Source: Candidatus Endomicrobiellum trichonymphae (GTDB lineage: Bacteria; Elusimicrobiota; Endomicrobiia; Endomicrobiales; Endomicrobiaceae). Taken from it: a stretch of DNA of 64,000 nt. The number at the start of each line of letters is the position of its first letter. Position 1 is the first letter of the stretch. Positions 35,919 to 43,545 of the stretch are shown here, one piece after another. A program made the translations under genes and the position numbers. The stretch lies in assembly GCF_002355835.1 (NCBI RefSeq), contig NZ_AP017459.1:558001-622000 (forward strand), in the 5' to 3' direction. Under the pieces are notes generated by a model that saw nothing but the letters and a program-made list of their open reading frames with translations, ran no database searches and was not told where the DNA came from.

Positions 35919-35977
35919 CCGGTTCAATATTTTAGTTGCAGCTTTGAAAAACTAATTGTTAAAATTAATTTATATAA

Positions 35978-36145
35978 GAGCTATTCAGGAGTAGAGAGTT
36001 TTTATATTGGAGAGATTATATCAAAGTAAAATTTAAAAATACTCAAAAAAATATATACAGTTACAAGCAAGCGGGCGCTAATCATATAGAAAAAATGAAG
36101 AAATTAGCTCGAAGAGGCAATGGTTTAAGTCGTTATGTTATATAG
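35978..36145 (+). pseudogene. KTSC-like small gene remnant without start codon
   Basis: A 56-codon open frame without ATG, GTG or TTG at its start reads VKFKNTQKNIYSYKQAGA, then IEKMKKLARRGNGLSRYVI. This resembles the KTSC domain pattern (F.n....Y.Y...g...v..mk.la..G.GL..Y). KTSC domains are small and occur near nucleic-acid enzymes. It lies 22 bases ahead of the GIY-YIG gene and may be a decayed fourth member of that module. The remaining bases of 35919-36166 hold nothing else. Confidence 0.35.
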
Positions 36146-36166
36146 ATAAACATGTAAAAGATAAAT

Positions 36167-36625
36167 ATGATAAACAATATAGTCGATATATATTTTGATG
36201 CTCCTATGTCATTTGAAGCAAGGAATATTAGCACATTAAAAGGGATAGTAGGTTTATATTTTATTTTCAGCTCAAACATTTTTATCAAATATCCTTTTGG
36301 TTGCTCAAAATTACTTTATGTAGGTATGAGCGAGAAAAAAACGAATAGTATAGGAAGTAGACTTATTGGGCATTTTGAAGGCAAATCAAAAAATGCAGGG
36401 TTAGTTAATTATCGGAAAGCAGAACCATTAAAATTTACATATATAAACTTTGATATGTTAAAAGATATTTGGAAATTTAGAATTGAGGATTTGGAAAGTT
36501 ATTTTATATTAAATTTTGTTGAAAATTTTGGAGTATATCCAATCTGCAATAATAAAGCCGGATTTGAAATTCTTAATAGCGACATTACAACACATTTCAA
36601 AATTGATTGGAGTTATTTTAAATGA
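36167..36625 (+). CDS. GIY-YIG nuclease-like protein
   Basis: The 152-residue product shows a divergent GIY-YIG core. GLYFIF (residues 29-34) stands for GIY, LLYVGMS (49-55) for YIG. The helix IGSRLIGHF supplies Arg65 and a later glutamate is available in EDLESYFILNF (about 112). These residues fit a metal-dependent single-domain nuclease. It overlaps the next small gene by 4 bases (ATGA) and that one overlaps the SMC-like ATPase, so the three form one tightly coupled unit. Unlike most defence genes in the window, the frame is intact. I know no described system by this exact composition. Confidence 0.65.
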   Translation: MINNIVDIYFDAPMSFEARNISTLKGIVGLYFIFSSNIFIKYPFGCSKLLYVGMSEKKTNSIGSRLIGHFEGKSKNAGLVNYRKAEPLKFTYINFDMLKDIWKFRIEDLESYFILNFVENFGVYPICNNKAGFEILNSDITTHFKIDWSYFK

Positions 36626-36810
36626 GTGAAGAAAATACAGTTAAAACAGGCAAAGAAATTTTAGATACTTTCTTCCAATCTATTCTTTCTATCGAGGGCA
36701 TAGATAGTGAAATTGCAAATGCGTTGCTTGAATTATATAACGAAGGCAAATTTACTGAAAGCAATGTTTTAAACAAGATTAGAAAAATAAGGGAAACAAA
36801 TGCCAATTAA
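36622..36810 (+). CDS. 62-residue protein between nuclease and ATPase
   Basis: This acidic, helical small protein (MSEENTVKTGKEILDTFFQS, then IANALLELYNEGKFTESNVL) has no recognised family. Its start overlaps the stop of the GIY-YIG gene and its end overlaps the ATPase start by 11 bases, which supports that it is translated. It could be an adaptor or inhibitor of the nuclease/ATPase pair, but this is inference from position only. Confidence 0.6.
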   Translation: MSEENTVKTGKEILDTFFQSILSIEGIDSEIANALLELYNEGKFTESNVLNKIRKIRETNAN

Positions 36811-39220
36811 AATAAACAATTTAACTATCTCTGGGATTAGAGGCATTCAAAACACTATAAATCTTCAGTTGAATGGAAAATCAATATTGCTTTATGGCGA
36901 AAACGGCTCTGGAAAAAGTAGTATCACAGACGCTATTGAATGGTTGTATAAAGACAGCGTGTCGCATTTAGAAAATACTGAAATCAATTTAAAAGACGCT
37001 TTGCGAAATTCATATACTGATAAAGCTATAAACTCTGAAGTTTACATCAAAGATAATCAGAATTTTAATATCTCAAAAAAACTATTTTATAAAGGCAGCA
37101 AACTTGTTTCTGACTTATCTAATACATCAGAAACATATATGCTTGCCTCCGAAAAAGAAAATTTATTGATTAGGTATTATTTGCTTAGAAATTTTGTCAG
37201 TCAAACAAAAAGCGATAAGTTAAAACTCCTCTCAGACATTATCGGCTTCTCGGAAGTTACTAAAACAAAAGAAATTTTAAAGAAAACTTTCAATTCAGTA
37301 AAAAATGAAATTAAAAACCAAAATTTTGAAAGCCTAATAAATATTCAAAAAGAAACGCTTATTTCAAAAATAGGAGCGACAGTAAGCCAAGAGAATAACT
37401 TAATTGAAAAAATCAATGAAAAAATAAAACCATTAAATCTTGAGATTGTTGCTGCAACAATAAAAGATATTGATATGATTTTGGAACAAATATCAAAGCA
37501 ATCTGTAAATAAAGAACTTCTGTCTTCACAGGCTTTCCTTGAAACTACAAAAGAAGACCTTGCTTCTCTAAAAAACGATAGAATCCTTATTGATAAAGAA
37601 TATAAAGAGTTTTACGCAAAATTTAATGAAATTGTAGCTGATACTCAAAGCGTAATGCAGACATATTTAGCAGAATTGTTAAAGACTGGAAATCTTCTTA
37701 TAGAGAAAAAGTATCCTAATGATAACACTTGTCCTTTATGCCTACAACAAAAAGATCTCGCAAAGTTAAATGCAGAAATAAATCAAAGACTTGAGGAAAT
37801 AAAAGCCTCTTCACAAATTAAAGACAAATTTGACAATGCAAAAAAATCGGTTTCTGATATTTCATCAAAACGAATAAAAAGAATAGAAGTTATGTTAAAT
37901 AATCTAATATTATTAAAACCTGAAAATACCACTATTAAGAAAGCATTAGAAAATCTAAAAATAAAATTTAAAAATTATTATGAAACAACTGAAAAGAAAG
38001 TTATTGCCGGCGATAAATTGCCAGACAACAATGAGCTGCTCATTACGGACAATGATTTTGAAATTCATACGGAAATCCTAAAAAGATTAGAAATCATAAA
38101 CAACACTATAAAAAATAATAAAGCAACTGAAATTTATTCAAATATATCTGCCTCAAAGGACGCATTTTTAAAAATTAAAAGATTTGAAAACGAAAAATCT
38201 AAATTAGAACATCAAAGAAAATCTTTAGAGTTGACTTATAACGAATTTACAAAGCAGCAAAAAGAAGTGTTAGAGATTTTTATAAATAATTTTTCTGCTA
38301 AAATAAACGAGTTTTATCAATATATGAACCCGGGCGAGTTATTCCAAGAAATACAAATTGTTCCAATTGGAGAAGAAGATGAGCTGAAAGGTATTACTAT
38401 TGAATATAAATACAATGATGAAAGGGTATATCCGCCCCAGAAATATTTCAGCGATGGTCATTTGAATTGTTTGGGTATAGCATTTTTCTTGGCTTCTGTG
38501 ATTGCATTCAATAAAAAAAACAAATTTATTGTTTTCGATGATGTAATTTCAAGTTTTGATACAGAACATAGAAAACGATTTGCAGATTTGCTTTTTGATA
38601 AGTTTTCAGATTATCAAATAATATTATTAACGCACGAGACGGAATGGTTCAATTATGTGAGCCAGATAGCAAAAAAGAAGGGCTGGTTAATCAACACTGT
38701 CAAATGGAGCGAAACAAAAGGAACATATTTGGAAGAAAAACCGTCAGATTTAAAAGAATTTATTGAAAAAGAACTTGCCGATGGAAGAGCGGAAACTCTC
38801 GGTAATCCTATAGGACAGCATTTAGAACATATTTTAAAAGATATATGTTTCAATTTAAAAGCTCAGGTAAATTTTCGTTTTAATGATATCAATGAAAAAA
38901 GAATGCTGGATGAATTACTCAACAGTCTAAAATCAAGGATTAACGAAAAAGGGAAATCTTGTTGGGCAGAGCAACTGAAAACTATAGATAATGTTGCAAA
39001 TTCTGCCATTCTTAGAAATCTGCTTTCGCACGATAATCCTTTTAATCCTAAATTAGGCGATTTAAGAGCATTTTGGGTAGATATACAAAATCTGAAAAAA
39101 ATATTTTTTTGCCAAGATAAAGACTGCAAAAAACCTAAAGTCTCAATGAAAAATTACGATACCGTAAATAATAAAATAAGATGCGGCTGCGGAAAGACTG
39201 AATATTATTGGAAAAAATAA
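36800..39220 (+). CDS. SMC/RecF-like ATPase with CxxC hook and C-terminal zinc motif
   Basis: The 806-residue product has an N-terminal RecF/SMC half-ATPase with Walker A YGENGSGKSSITDA (residues 33-46). A coiled-coil region of some 450 residues is broken by a zinc-hook-like CPLC (Cys311, Cys314). The C-terminal half-ATPase has Walker B FIVFDDVISSFD (about 575-587) and LTHETEW. Beyond the ATPase is a roughly 180-residue extension (HLEHILKDICF, AILRNLLSHDN) and a four-cysteine motif near the end (CQDKDC...CGCG). The ribosome site (GGGAAACAA) lies inside the preceding gene. Similar ATPases drive Lamassu, PARIS and other defence systems, but the extension and its partners differ from what I know of those. 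Confidence 0.75.
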   Translation: MPIKINNLTISGIRGIQNTINLQLNGKSILLYGENGSGKSSITDAIEWLYKDSVSHLENTEINLKDALRNSYTDKAINSEVYIKDNQNFNISKKLFYKGSKLVSDLSNTSETYMLASEKENLLIRYYLLRNFVSQTKSDKLKLLSDIIGFSEVTKTKEILKKTFNSVKNEIKNQNFESLINIQKETLISKIGATVSQENNLIEKINEKIKPLNLEIVAATIKDIDMILEQISKQSVNKELLSSQAFLETTKEDLASLKNDRILIDKEYKEFYAKFNEIVADTQSVMQTYLAELLKTGNLLIEKKYPNDNTCPLCLQQKDLAKLNAEINQRLEEIKASSQIKDKFDNAKKSVSDISSKRIKRIEVMLNNLILLKPENTTIKKALENLKIKFKNYYETTEKKVIAGDKLPDNNELLITDNDFEIHTEILKRLEIINNTIKNNKATEIYSNISASKDAFLKIKRFENEKSKLEHQRKSLELTYNEFTKQQKEVLEIFINNFSAKINEFYQYMNPGELFQEIQIVPIGEEDELKGITIEYKYNDERVYPPQKYFSDGHLNCLGIAFFLASVIAFNKKNKFIVFDDVISSFDTEHRKRFADLLFDKFSDYQIILLTHETEWFNYVSQIAKKKGWLINTVKWSETKGTYLEEKPSDLKEFIEKELADGRAETLGNPIGQHLEHILKDICFNLKAQVNFRFNDINEKRMLDELLNSLKSRINEKGKSCWAEQLKTIDNVANSAILRNLLSHDNPFNPKLGDLRAFWVDIQNLKKIFFCQDKDCKKPKVSMKNYDTVNNKIRCGCGKTEYYWKK

Positions 39221-39335
39221 TTATACAATAAATAAAATTGGCTCGTTCTGCAATATGGAATGTAAAAAAGATAGTTCAACGCTTCCGAAAGTATGTTAAA
39301 TGTAGTAATTTGTTGTTTTAAATAAAAGGCGGATT

Positions 39336-40840
39336 ATGCCGACTCTTGACTGGTTAAACAAAAAAGAAGCAGTAAAAACAGCGAATAAAATACCTTATAA
39401 ACTGCTGAATATAAAACCTGAATTATCTTGCGGAGAACAAAATGGAAATATGATAATTAAAGGAGATAATTTAGAAGCGCTGAAAACCCTGCTGCCATAC
39501 TATAAGGGACAGGTAAAATGTATCTACATCGATCCTCCGTATAATACAGGCAGCGCATTTGAACATTATGACGATAACTTAGAACACTCCACTTGGCTTT
39601 CTATGATGTATCCAAGACTTGAACTGTTGAGAGAACTGCTTGCGGAAAACGGGAGCATTTGGATAAGTATTGATGATGACGAACAGGCATATTTGAAAGT
39701 TATTTGTGATGAAATTTTTGGAAGAAAAAATTTTGTAAATAATGTGGTTTGGCAGAAGAAATACTCACCTGCAAATGATACAAGGTGGCTTTCAGATAAT
39801 CACGATTTTATAATAGTTTATGCAAAAAATAAAAATTTATGGGAGCCAAATTTATTGCCTCGTTCAGATACAATGAATGCAAGATATAAAAATATAGATA
39901 ATGATCCAAGAGGTCTTTGGAAACCCGGCGGTTTTTCTGTAAAAACATATACCAAAGAATATGATTATTCAATCACTACTCCTACAGGGAGGATTGTTTA
40001 TCCACCATCGGGTTCTTGTTGGCAAACTTCAAAAGAAAATTATGAAAAGAAGTTAGCAGATAATAGAATTTATTTTGGCAAAAATGGAGATTCAAAACCT
40101 CAGATTAAACAATTCCTGTATGAAGTTCAGCAAGGTATGGTATCAAAAACTATATGGCTATATGATGAGGTTGGACATAACCAAATAGCTAAAAAAGAAG
40201 TGCAAATATTAAATGCTGCTGATGTTTTTGCCACTCCAAAACCAGAACGGCTTATTGAACGCGTTTTAACGTTAGGAAGCAACCCCGGCGATTTAGTTTT
40301 AGATTCATTTTTAGGCAGCGGAACAACAGCGGCAGTCGCTCAAAAAATAGGCAGGCGTTATAGGGCGAACATGCAATAACGCACGCTGCGCCAAGACTTA
40401 AAAAAGTTATAGACGGGGAACAAGGCGGCATAAGCAAGTCTGTAAATTGGCAAGGCGGCGGCGGGTTTACATTTTATGATATGGGAGAAGCCATTTTTGA
40501 TGAAAAAGGAAATATAAACAAACGAATTGATTTTAAATCGCTGGCTTTTCATATATGGTTCAGCGAAACAAAAACGGCAATGAGAGAATACAAGAAATCG
40601 CCTCTGCTCGGAGTATTTGACAACGCGGTTTATTATTTATTATATAACGGCATTTTAGGTGACAAAAAGGTAAACGGAGGAAATGTTTTGACAAGTAAAA
40701 TTCTTGAAATTTTGCCAAAACCTGACAATAGAAAGCATAAAAAAGTTATTTACGGCGAAGCCTGCCGATTAAGTTCAGACAAGCTAAGAAAAGAGAATAT
40801 AACTTTCAAACAAACGCCCTACGACATAAAAGCAGGATAA
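39336..40840 (+). pseudogene. mod: Type III DNA methyltransferase (Mod), broken near two thirds
   Basis: The first frame (39336-40379) has GDNLEALKTLLPYYKG, the catalytic IDPPYNTG (about residue 68) and the SAM-binding DSFLGSGTTAAVAQ, and stops after GRRYRANMQ. The normal continuation (IG.E.GEHA.TH...RL) reappears as GEHAITHAAPRLKKV in another frame, on to 40840. A deletion of a few codons together with a frame change at about 40364-40370 explains this. Both catalytic motifs lie in the first part, so a truncated enzyme is conceivable, but it lacks about 160 C-terminal residues. It should modify the sites that the downstream Res cleaves. Confidence 0.8.
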
Positions 40841-40880
40841 AGCCATACCTTTTACCTTTCTTTCCCGAGTACTGCCCGTA

Positions 40881-40920
40881 TGTCATACTGAGGAGAACGG
40901 AGTTCCCGAAGTTATCTATA
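40881..40920 (+). repeat. Diverged copy of the dispersed TGTCAT element
   Basis: TGTCATACTGAGGAGAACGG followed by AGTTCCCGAAG lies in the 130-base gap between mod and res. It resembles the intergenic element at 45379, 31094 and 46581, but less closely. Confidence 0.35.
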
Positions 40921-40972
40921 ATGATTTAGCATAAAATTTTACACAGCGGCTTTTCAAGCGCGGAGATAGTAC

Positions 40973-43543
40973 ATGTTCACATTAAAACAATATCAGCAAA
41001 GAACTTTAGACACTCTGACATCTTTTTTGAAAAAAGCGCGTATTTTCGGGGCAGAAACTGCATTTGAAGAATATGCGGCAATGCCAAACAAAACATACGA
41101 ACCTATCGCCGAACTGCCTTTAACTCCATATATCTGCTTAAGACTTCCTACCGGCGGCGGAAAAACATACCTCGCTGCAAATGCGGTAAAGGTTGCCGCT
41201 CAAAATTATTTAGATAAAGATTTTCCCATTGTTTTATGGCTTACGCCTACCACAACAATAAAAGAACAGACAATAGAAACATTAAAAAATTCCAGTCATC
41301 CAAACAGAGAGATTTTAGATGAAACTTTTGCCGGAAATGTTGAAATTTACGATATATCCGAATTTGAAAGAATAAAACCTCAAGATATAAAAGCAAATGT
41401 ATGTATAATCGCGGCGACAATTCAGTCTTTTAGAGTTGATAAAACAGAGGGAAGACTGATATATTCTCATAACGAAAATTTAGAAACGCATTTTGTAAAT
41501 ATACTTGACAATAAACCGCTAAGTTTGGAGAGAATAGAAGACAGCCGCCCTGACAGCGGAAAAATTAAGTGCTCTTTCGCGAATCTGCTTAATATTCACA
41601 ATCCTTTAGTAATTGTCGACGAAGCCCATAATGCAAGCACAAAATTGAGTTATAAAGTAATGGAAAGAGTAAACCCCGCATGTATTATTGAATTTACGGC
41701 TACTCCTGCTGCCAACAGCAATGTTTTAGTTAAAGTTTCAGCTATGGAACTTAAAGCTGAAGAAATGATAAAACTCCCTATCATTTTAAAAGAAAATCAG
41801 ACTTGGGAGGAATCTCTTGCCGACTCTGTTTTAATGCGCAGAAAACTTGCCGAAACTGCCATAAAAGACGAACATTATATACGACCTATCGTTTTAATTC
41901 AGGCAGAAAATGAAAACAGAGAAATAACCGTAGATGTTATAAAAAAATATCTGATGGAAAATGAGAAAATAGAGCCGGAACAAATTGCAATTGCAACCGG
42001 AGAACAGAGAGAACTTGATAATATTGACATTCTAAGCAAAGACTGTAAAATACAATATATTATTACAAAGCAGGCATTAAAAGAAGGCTGGGATTGTCCT
42101 TTTGCATACATATTCTGCTCTGCTGCAAGTACAAAGTCTGCTAAAGATGTGGAACAACTGCTCGGCAGAGTTCTGCGTATGCCGTATGCAGCCAAAAGAA
42201 ACGATGAGGACTTGAATAAGGCTTACGCTTTTGTTTCAAGATCATGCTGGACTAATTCCGTAAGTTTTCTGCAGGATAAACTTGTACGTATGGGGTTTGA
42301 AAACTGGGAAGCTGAAAATGCGCTGCAGGCGAACTTAATGCTTGATGCTGGAAAAATTCAGAATAGGAACGAGTTTTCTTTTACAGCTAAATTAGATACG
42401 TCTTATTTCGCCCAGACGGAAATAAAAATACTTGAACTTAGAGAAAACCAAAACGGATATGCAGTAATGAAATTAAGTAAAGACACTCCCAGGGAATTAT
42501 TTGAAAAAATACAAACTAATCTCCCCGAAGCTGACAAAAAAGTTTTTAAGAATATTGCAGATTTTATATCTAAAGCTTCAATTCTATCGCCAGCGCAAAG
42601 AGGGGAAGAAATAAGCGTCCCGCAGCTTTGTCTTAACATATCCGGAGAATGGGAAGCTGTAACCGATAAAGAACAATATCTGCCAGACGGATGGAATCTG
42701 CTTGACTGTAAAGCTGAACTTTCGCCATCGGAATTTAGTATTGAAAATAAAGGAAAAATTTTTGAAATTGATATAAACGACAATAAAATAACAAACAGAT
42801 ATATTCAAGAAACATTGACGATAGACTTAGATAATCTTGAATCAGACTGGACAAATTCAGAACTTTCAAGATGGCTTGACAAAAATATAAGACAACCGGA
42901 TATTGAACAGCCTATTTTGCTTGAATTTCTAAGAAAAATGATTGAATACCTAAATTTAACAAGAAATATTCCTTTAACGTCTTTGATAAGAACAAAATTT
43001 ATTTTAGCCGAAGTCATAAATAATAAAATAGGCAAATACAGGACTGAAGCGTATGTAAAAGCCTATAGAGACTTATTTGTCAGTTTGAGCCAAAATATTG
43101 AAACGAAATCTGAATCTAGCTTTCTTTTTAAGTTCGGGCAAGAATATCAGCCTCTGTCTATATATGAGGGCACAACAAAATTCAATAAACATCTCTATGA
43201 ACATATCGGCGCTATGAACAAAGAAGAAGAAAACTGTGCCGCTGTTATTGATAGTTTGGAAGAAGTTAAATACTGGGTGCGTAACATTGAAAGAAGCAAT
43301 TATTCGTTTTTTCTGCCGACTTCAACAGACAGATTTTATCCTGATTTTATAGCTTTGTTAACCGACGGCAGAATTTTAGCCGTAGAATATAAGGGCGGAC
43401 ATTTATTGTCAACTGACGATACAAAAGAAAAAGAAAATATCGGCAGACTCTGGCAGGAAAAAAGCGGCGGAAAATGTCTATTCATGCTATCATCAAAAGA
43501 GAATTTAGAGCGGCAAATTATTGATAAAATAAAAGAGGAATAA
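40973..43543 (+). CDS. res: Type III restriction enzyme (Res)
   Basis: The 856-residue product is an SF2 translocase fused to a nuclease. Walker A is PTGGGKTYLAAN (about residue 58), the DEAH box VDEAHNAS (about 215), and the helicase motif VI region is LLGRVLRMP. Near the C-terminus YPDFIALLTDGRILAVEYKGG (about 785-805) is the PD-(D/E)XK active site. The frame is intact. Res works only in complex with Mod, which here is broken. The stop is 3 bases before the mutL ATG. Confidence 0.92.
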   Translation: MFTLKQYQQRTLDTLTSFLKKARIFGAETAFEEYAAMPNKTYEPIAELPLTPYICLRLPTGGGKTYLAANAVKVAAQNYLDKDFPIVLWLTPTTTIKEQTIETLKNSSHPNREILDETFAGNVEIYDISEFERIKPQDIKANVCIIAATIQSFRVDKTEGRLIYSHNENLETHFVNILDNKPLSLERIEDSRPDSGKIKCSFANLLNIHNPLVIVDEAHNASTKLSYKVMERVNPACIIEFTATPAANSNVLVKVSAMELKAEEMIKLPIILKENQTWEESLADSVLMRRKLAETAIKDEHYIRPIVLIQAENENREITVDVIKKYLMENEKIEPEQIAIATGEQRELDNIDILSKDCKIQYIITKQALKEGWDCPFAYIFCSAASTKSAKDVEQLLGRVLRMPYAAKRNDEDLNKAYAFVSRSCWTNSVSFLQDKLVRMGFENWEAENALQANLMLDAGKIQNRNEFSFTAKLDTSYFAQTEIKILELRENQNGYAVMKLSKDTPRELFEKIQTNLPEADKKVFKNIADFISKASILSPAQRGEEISVPQLCLNISGEWEAVTDKEQYLPDGWNLLDCKAELSPSEFSIENKGKIFEIDINDNKITNRYIQETLTIDLDNLESDWTNSELSRWLDKNIRQPDIEQPILLEFLRKMIEYLNLTRNIPLTSLIRTKFILAEVINNKIGKYRTEAYVKAYRDLFVSLSQNIETKSESSFLFKFGQEYQPLSIYEGTTKFNKHLYEHIGAMNKEEENCAAVIDSLEEVKYWVRNIERSNYSFFLPTSTDRFYPDFIALLTDGRILAVEYKGGHLLSTDDTKEKENIGRLWQEKSGGKCLFMLSSKENLERQIIDKIKEE

Positions 43544-43545
43544 AA

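Follow-up and report, generated by a model that had tools for sequence, protein, structure and literature searches.

A Conserved Trio of Genes for a GIY-YIG-Type Nuclease, a Small Acidic Protein, and a Rad50-like ATPase as a Candidate Defense Module in Candidatus Endomicrobiellum trichonymphae

Gene Content and History of the Locus

The window analyzed in this study, i.e., the whole stretch of 64,000 nucleotides taken from contig NZ_AP017459.1, originates from a member of the Endomicrobium group with a genome of 1.13 Mb. Between mutS and mutL, it harbors a trio of genes encoding a putative GIY-YIG-type nuclease, a small acidic protein, and a Rad50-like ATPase, accompanied by the remains of a fourth gene and by genes of a type III restriction-modification (R-M) system (Table 1). 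The three overlapping genes with clean frames named in the preliminary description were recovered as open reading frames (ORFs) at exactly the same coordinates; the nuclease gene and the small gene overlap by 4 bases, the small gene and the ATPase gene by 11 bases, and all three frames are intact. At the base composition of the window, the probability that 806 codons stay open by chance is approximately 1e-27. Taken by itself, the ORF of 62 codons is not significant (P ~0.008), but a conserved counterpart is present in each of 15 further complete loci. The isoelectric points were calculated to be 8.8 for the nuclease, 4.6 for the 62-aa protein, and 8.6 for the ATPase.

Table 1. Features of the locus between mutS and mutL (coordinates refer to the window).
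Feature	Coordinates	Strand	Basis or remark
Insert between mutS and mutL: trio, dead fourth gene, type III R-M genes	35919..43545	.	7.6 kb; site empty in at least 12 other Endomicrobium genomes, insert also in L011
Decayed copy of the gene for a ~72-aa protein that accompanies the trio elsewhere	35985..36147	+	tblastn
GIY-YIG-type nuclease gene, 152 aa, putative effector	36167..36625	+	Homologues match Pfam GIY_YIG_2; invariant core residues; predicted element order
Gene for 62-aa acidic protein, putative middle subunit/adaptor of the ATPase	36622..36810	+	Kept in all complete loci
Rad50/LmuB-like ABC ATPase gene, 806 aa, putative sensor	36800..39220	+	PADLOC LmuB, Pfam SMC_N, ATPase motifs
CPLC zinc-hook motif at the coiled-coil apex of the ATPase	37730..37741	+	C311, P312, C314 invariant in 20 relatives
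C-terminal extension of the ATPase: helical domain, N-x-x-SHDN motif, four-cysteine end	38660..39217	+	Invariant residues
Type III mod, N-terminal part of the broken gene	39336..40379	+	PADLOC MTase_III, E 1e-133
Type III mod, C-terminal remnant	40481..40840	+	PADLOC PDLC03644, positions 421-541
Type III res, 856 aa, open	40973..43543	+	PADLOC REase_III, E 1e-172

The neighboring mod gene, correctly recognized as broken at the outset, consists of two separate ORFs (347 and 119 aa), and res is open. The dead fourth gene was detected by tblastn with homologues from loci L010 and L017 (E 2e-14 and 2e-13, respectively) and contains frame breaks. Intact copies of this gene, encoding approximately 72 aa, precede the trio in L009, L010, L016, and L017 and follow it downstream in L015 and L041. 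Its product looks KTSC-like by eye; this assignment was discarded, as Pfam gave no match up to E 5.

Elsewhere in Endomicrobium, mutS adjoins mutL and miaA directly or nearly so in at least 12 genomes, and the intervening region of the window therefore represents one single insert, which is absent from most Endomicrobium genomes. Neither the dead fourth gene nor the fact that the trio and the type III R-M genes belong to one insert had been noticed in the preliminary description. The insert is shared, at an identical position between mutS and mutL, by a sibling species (L011). The pattern of the window is reversed in L011, where the mod gene is intact (565 aa) and the ATPase gene is interrupted at codon 678. 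At the corresponding site of genome G041 (L074), a short segment retaining part of res was found, which is likely a deletion scar.

The insert is older than the split between the organism of the window and L011. Recent arrival or selection had been proposed to explain why the trio is intact among mostly dead defense genes. As the insert is shared with L011, intactness is no sign of recent arrival; the second part of the proposal stands, since dN/dS values between Endomicrobium-group copies range from 0.11 to 0.19 for the three genes, and the trio is thus under purifying selection. The divergence from L011 is uneven, with identities of approximately 93% for mutS, approximately 80% for the nuclease, 96% for the small-protein region, and 79-93% for the ATPase. 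Patches of low identity are located at positions 36150-36600 (nuclease, ~80%) and 38850-39000 (C-terminal domain of the ATPase, 65%). This pattern suggests recombination or local diversification, possibly under diversifying selection.

Features of the Three Predicted Proteins

The assignment of the first protein to the GIY-YIG family as a divergent member, already made in the preliminary description, is based on its motifs together with weak Pfam scores. Across 18 nuclease sequences with identities down to 40%, residues G29, Y31, Y51, G53, R65, H69, E110, and N128 do not vary, and the GIY, YIG, and catalytic R, E, and N residues stand in the order of the GIY-YIG fold. Pfam GIY_YIG_2 was matched by 16 of the 18 nuclease homologues (best E 2.4e-4); the protein of the window itself, with E 0.005, fell short of the cut-off. 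In the structure model (pLDDT 82), the core follows the strand-strand-helix-helix-strand-helix order of GIY-YIG domains. Foldseek matches were non-significant; several GIY-YIG or homing endonucleases ranked at the top of the viral ones, and T4 EndoII was among those to the PDB. Furthermore, the homologue from Aliiroseovarius was annotated as a GIY-YIG nuclease by PGAP. PADLOC yielded no match of the nuclease to LmuA; its 152 aa are filled by the nuclease domain and thus leave no room for the C-terminal docking domain of LmuA.

The ATPase was matched to the PADLOC model LmuB (PDLC03859, E 2e-26, residues 1-623; second LmuB model, E 3e-23) and to Pfam SMC_N (E 4e-16). LmuB was also matched by the ATPases of all nine close relatives scanned, and the same model matches distant relatives described below. 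Walker A (residues 33-40), the signature (~549), a DD-type Walker B (~580), and the H-loop (~612) were identified, and the hook motif CPLC occupies residues 311-314, its C311, P312, and C314 being invariant across the 20 relatives, including distant ones. Among close relatives, N740, S743-N746, and the four C-terminal cysteines C771, C776, C795, and C797 are invariant. These results bear out the original assignment as a RecF/SMC ATPase with a CxxC hook, a C-terminal extension, and a four-cysteine end. For the extension of ~180 aa, no Pfam match was obtained at E 5, and the AlphaFold model of the ATPase is poor (pLDDT 66), being readable only as a Rad50/SMC fold. A catalytic HEPN domain at the C-terminus was considered on account of the suggestive RNLLSH of the window; judged by the requirement for a conserved Rx4-6H motif, it was rejected, because the arginine is replaced by S, G, or A in relatives.

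The 62-aa protein appears to be helical by its conserved pattern. No family match was found in Pfam, PADLOC, or NCBIfam, and its profile did not match the LmuC chains of solved Lamassu structures. Profile similarity to the plant GARP (Myb-like) DNA-binding domain 1irz (E 3.5e-4; weaker to other GARP domains) was, given the acidic nature of the protein, retained as no more than a lead, and this likeness is probably convergent.

Distribution of the Trio in Other Genomes

To evaluate the spread of the trio, 84,980 genomes were scanned with the ATPase as seed, and nuclease-seeded scans were carried out for Elusimicrobiota, Bacteroidia, Flavobacteriaceae, and Sphingobacteriaceae. In total, both approaches yielded 16 complete loci (the window, L009, L010, L012-L017, L035, L041, and L053-L057) from Elusimicrobiota, Bacteroidota, and one alphaproteobacterial plasmid. 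The co-occurrence of all three genes, through which the preliminary description had sought to establish the module, was thus found in three phyla. The closest named relative in the ATPase-seeded scan was Endomicrobium sp. Hs463_bin80. Nuclease-seeded matches, with seed genomes counted, were obtained in 8 of 295 genomes of Elusimicrobiota (decayed copies included), 1 of 395 of Bacteroidia, 2 of 397 of Flavobacteriaceae, and 6 of 301 of Sphingobacteriaceae. The ATPase gene is interrupted in L018 as in L011, and further trio copies of the Endomicrobium type are decaying.

Of the three proteins, the nuclease is the best conserved, with 71-80% identity to the copy of the window, against 55-68% for the ATPase and 46-92% for the small protein. 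The nuclease and ATPase trees have 7 of 15 splits in common, and the copies from the Endomicrobium group branch within those of Bacteroidota, a pattern consistent with lateral transfer. Phage records and IMG/VR contained no match to the trio, so that carriage by phages is unsupported. On the Aliiroseovarius plasmid (L035:3309-9980), the trio adjoins genes for TniQ, TniB, and a Mu-type transposase, possibly representing a Tn7/Tn5053-like carrier. The trio is a conserved unit that keeps all catalytic motifs and moves together between distant bacteria, mostly beside R-M genes.

Distant relatives of the ATPase, with 20-22% identity, were found on plasmids of Halorhabdus, Phaeobacter, Fibrella, and Natrinema. 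Directly upstream of each of these four genes lies a short ORF, which was matched by position and not by sequence, and no nuclease of the trio type was detected anywhere on these plasmids. On plasmid pHTIA of Halorhabdus tiamatea (L036:3805-6469), the small ORF and the Rad50-like ATPase gene are located between pglX and pglZ of a BREX-5 locus. Since the distant ATPases keep an upstream short ORF without the nuclease, the small protein and the ATPase are suggested to form the core, to which the GIY-YIG nuclease was added as effector.

The same observations bear on a toxin-antitoxin-like mode of action, with the 62-aa protein as a putative inhibitor of the nuclease and the ATPase lifting the inhibition. 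The acidic nature of the small protein (pI 4.6) and the translational overlap of its gene with the nuclease gene would fit such an arrangement; however, on the four plasmids the small ORF goes with the ATPase where such a nuclease is missing, and in L035 the small gene and the ATPase gene stay together, adjacent to a nuclease gene that is divergently transcribed. This explanation is therefore considered very improbable.

Association with Restriction-Modification Genes

R-M genes were found within approximately 5.5 kb of the trio in 11 of the 17 loci with flanking sequence, about one third of the loci being without them. The neighbors comprise type III systems (window, L011, L053, and L055), type I systems (L014, L016, and L054), a type II system (L041), a type II methylase match (L009), an MmeI-like IIG enzyme (L013), and a type ISP enzyme (L056). 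In two Bacteroidota, the genes form a res-mod-trio array, with the trio starting only 5 (L053) and 4 (L055) bases past mod. In addition, GmrSD domains are encoded near the trio in L013 and L014, and a gene of the AAA_13 (PrrC/RloC) type in L015. Two Sphingobacteriaceae encode, upstream of the trio, related uncharacterized proteins of ~360-380 aa (L012:4226-5302 and L056:4985-6124), which by eye contain a stretch resembling a PD-(D/E)XK nuclease; the L012 protein has no Pfam match.

With an E cut-off of 1e-20, 281 PADLOC families, mostly methylases and restriction enzymes, were recorded among 54 flanking proteins, whereas 64 control proteins yielded 7 families and neither a methylase nor a restriction enzyme. 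The controls represent 16 arbitrary stretches from eight of the same genomes, and flanking as well as control proteins were hand-picked from the larger ORFs. The enrichment in defense islands suspected initially is thus seen as R-M genes in 11 of 17 loci versus none in the control stretches. A match to MADS mad3 was dismissed as generic, one control protein scoring better (E 1.5e-34).

PrrC, RloC, and PARIS are known as guards residing beside other R-M systems. The analogy, drawn also from PMC12839542, leads to the main rival reading, according to which the complex of ATPase and small protein would monitor the R-M or anti-restriction proteins and unleash the nuclease once restriction is blocked. 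R-M genes of five kinds in 11 of 17 loci, the tight spacing behind type III mod in L053 and L055, the co-insertion with type III R-M genes in the window and L011, and the distant pair embedded in BREX between pglX and pglZ speak for such a role. Yet the R-M types are unrelated, making a specific protein contact with each of them unlikely, five loci (L012, L015, L017, L035, and L057) have no R-M neighbors, and defense genes cluster anyway. Taken together, a guard function appears rather unlikely.

The Rad50/SMC fold of the ATPase and the position of the insert between mutS and mutL might also point to a non-immune DNA repair or processing complex (SbcCD- or SLX1-like), with the ATPase bringing a structure-specific GIY-YIG nuclease to breaks caused by restriction or phages. 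This explanation is regarded as improbable, given the very patchy spread (0.25-3% of genomes), the restriction of the mutS-mutL site to the lineage of the window, and the frequent decay of the trio as well as its clustering with R-M genes.

Comparison with Known Systems

No such gene set was found in PADLOC 2.0 (2023), Pfam, NCBIfam, or openly searchable papers. The claim of an undescribed system is therefore upheld against the PADLOC models as far as complete systems are concerned, with the qualification that the ATPase alone matches LmuB. Menshen, put forward earlier for comparison, resembles the trio in being a multi-gene system with one ATPase. It is defined by DUF262 plus an OLD nuclease (PMC10952713), and was dismissed, as DUF262 and OLD/TOPRIM nuclease domains were found in none of the three proteins.

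The closest resemblance concerns the gene layout. Some Lamassu systems are devoid of LmuC. In Lamassu, the genes are arranged as LmuA-LmuC-LmuB, and in Lamassu/ABC-3C systems a Rad50-like sensor and a small middle protein control the effector (PMC10586767); according to the addendum of PMC12409362, the nuclease is liberated and oligomerizes upon activation. Like Lamassu type II, ABC-3C, and DdmABC, the trio consists of three overlapping genes: that for the effector nuclease comes first, followed by those for the small middle protein and for a Rad50-like ATPase that has a CPxC-type hook and matches LmuB models. The trio differs in that GIY-YIG is outside the effector list of the review PMC10586767, the nuclease is devoid of the LmuA-type C-terminal domain, the 62-aa protein is unrelated to LmuC by profile, and the ATPase carries an extra domain of ~180 aa with four cysteines. 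Because two of the three defining components (LmuA and LmuC) were searched for and not found, the trio is, judged by these sequence comparisons, classified as a Lamassu-like layout with a different effector and not as Lamassu proper.

PbeABCD (CxC ABC-ATPase/DndE) and Dnd neighborhoods feature exchangeable nucleases, including URI (GIY-YIG) (PMC10853773). PbeABCD shares with the trio a zinc-hook ABC ATPase, an obligate small partner, and exchangeable nucleases, but the hook of the trio is CPLC instead of CxC, its 62-aa partner has neither a Pfam match nor the two RHH units of DndE, and HKD-helicase and phosphorothioation genes are missing. PARIS, Septu, and Gabija (OLD/AAA_21 ATPase plus nuclease) likewise combine an ABC ATPase sensor with a nuclease; the similarity is confined to the head domain, their nucleases belong to other families, and a middle protein is absent. 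GIY-YIG nucleases also act in the phage defense systems PD-T4-3 and PD-lambda-1, for which the accessible part of PMC10952713 describes neither a Rad50-like ATPase nor a small partner.

Proposed Function and Implications

Based on gene order, ATPase family, and genomic context, the trio is proposed to represent a three-component defense module resembling Lamassu/ABC-3C with a GIY-YIG effector, a reading to which a probability only slightly above one half (approximately 0.5) is assigned. The Rad50-like ATPase would dimerize through its zinc hook, associate with the 62-aa protein, and sense abnormal phage or plasmid DNA such as ends, forks, hairpins, or fragments released by a neighboring restriction enzyme. 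ATP-driven closure of the complex may then activate or release the nuclease for DNA cleavage, and the invader would be destroyed or, as in Lamassu, the infected cell would be stopped. A broader and unlikely extension would regard the trio as part of an unnamed family of immune modules, in which varied effectors and host systems (GIY-YIG, BREX, and R-M) are plugged into a core of small protein and Rad50-like ATPase, serving as a second line triggered when, or because, neighboring restriction attacks an invader or fails to stop it.

If the proposed three-component defense module is confirmed, GIY-YIG would be added as an effector class of Rad50-like immune complexes, and the small partner would work without the LmuA-type docking domain. 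With approximately 3 kb, the trio would also offer a compact system for studying nuclease activation by Rad50-like sensors. Finally, the repeated tight link to all R-M types provides a route to ask whether ATPase modules guard restriction or feed on it.
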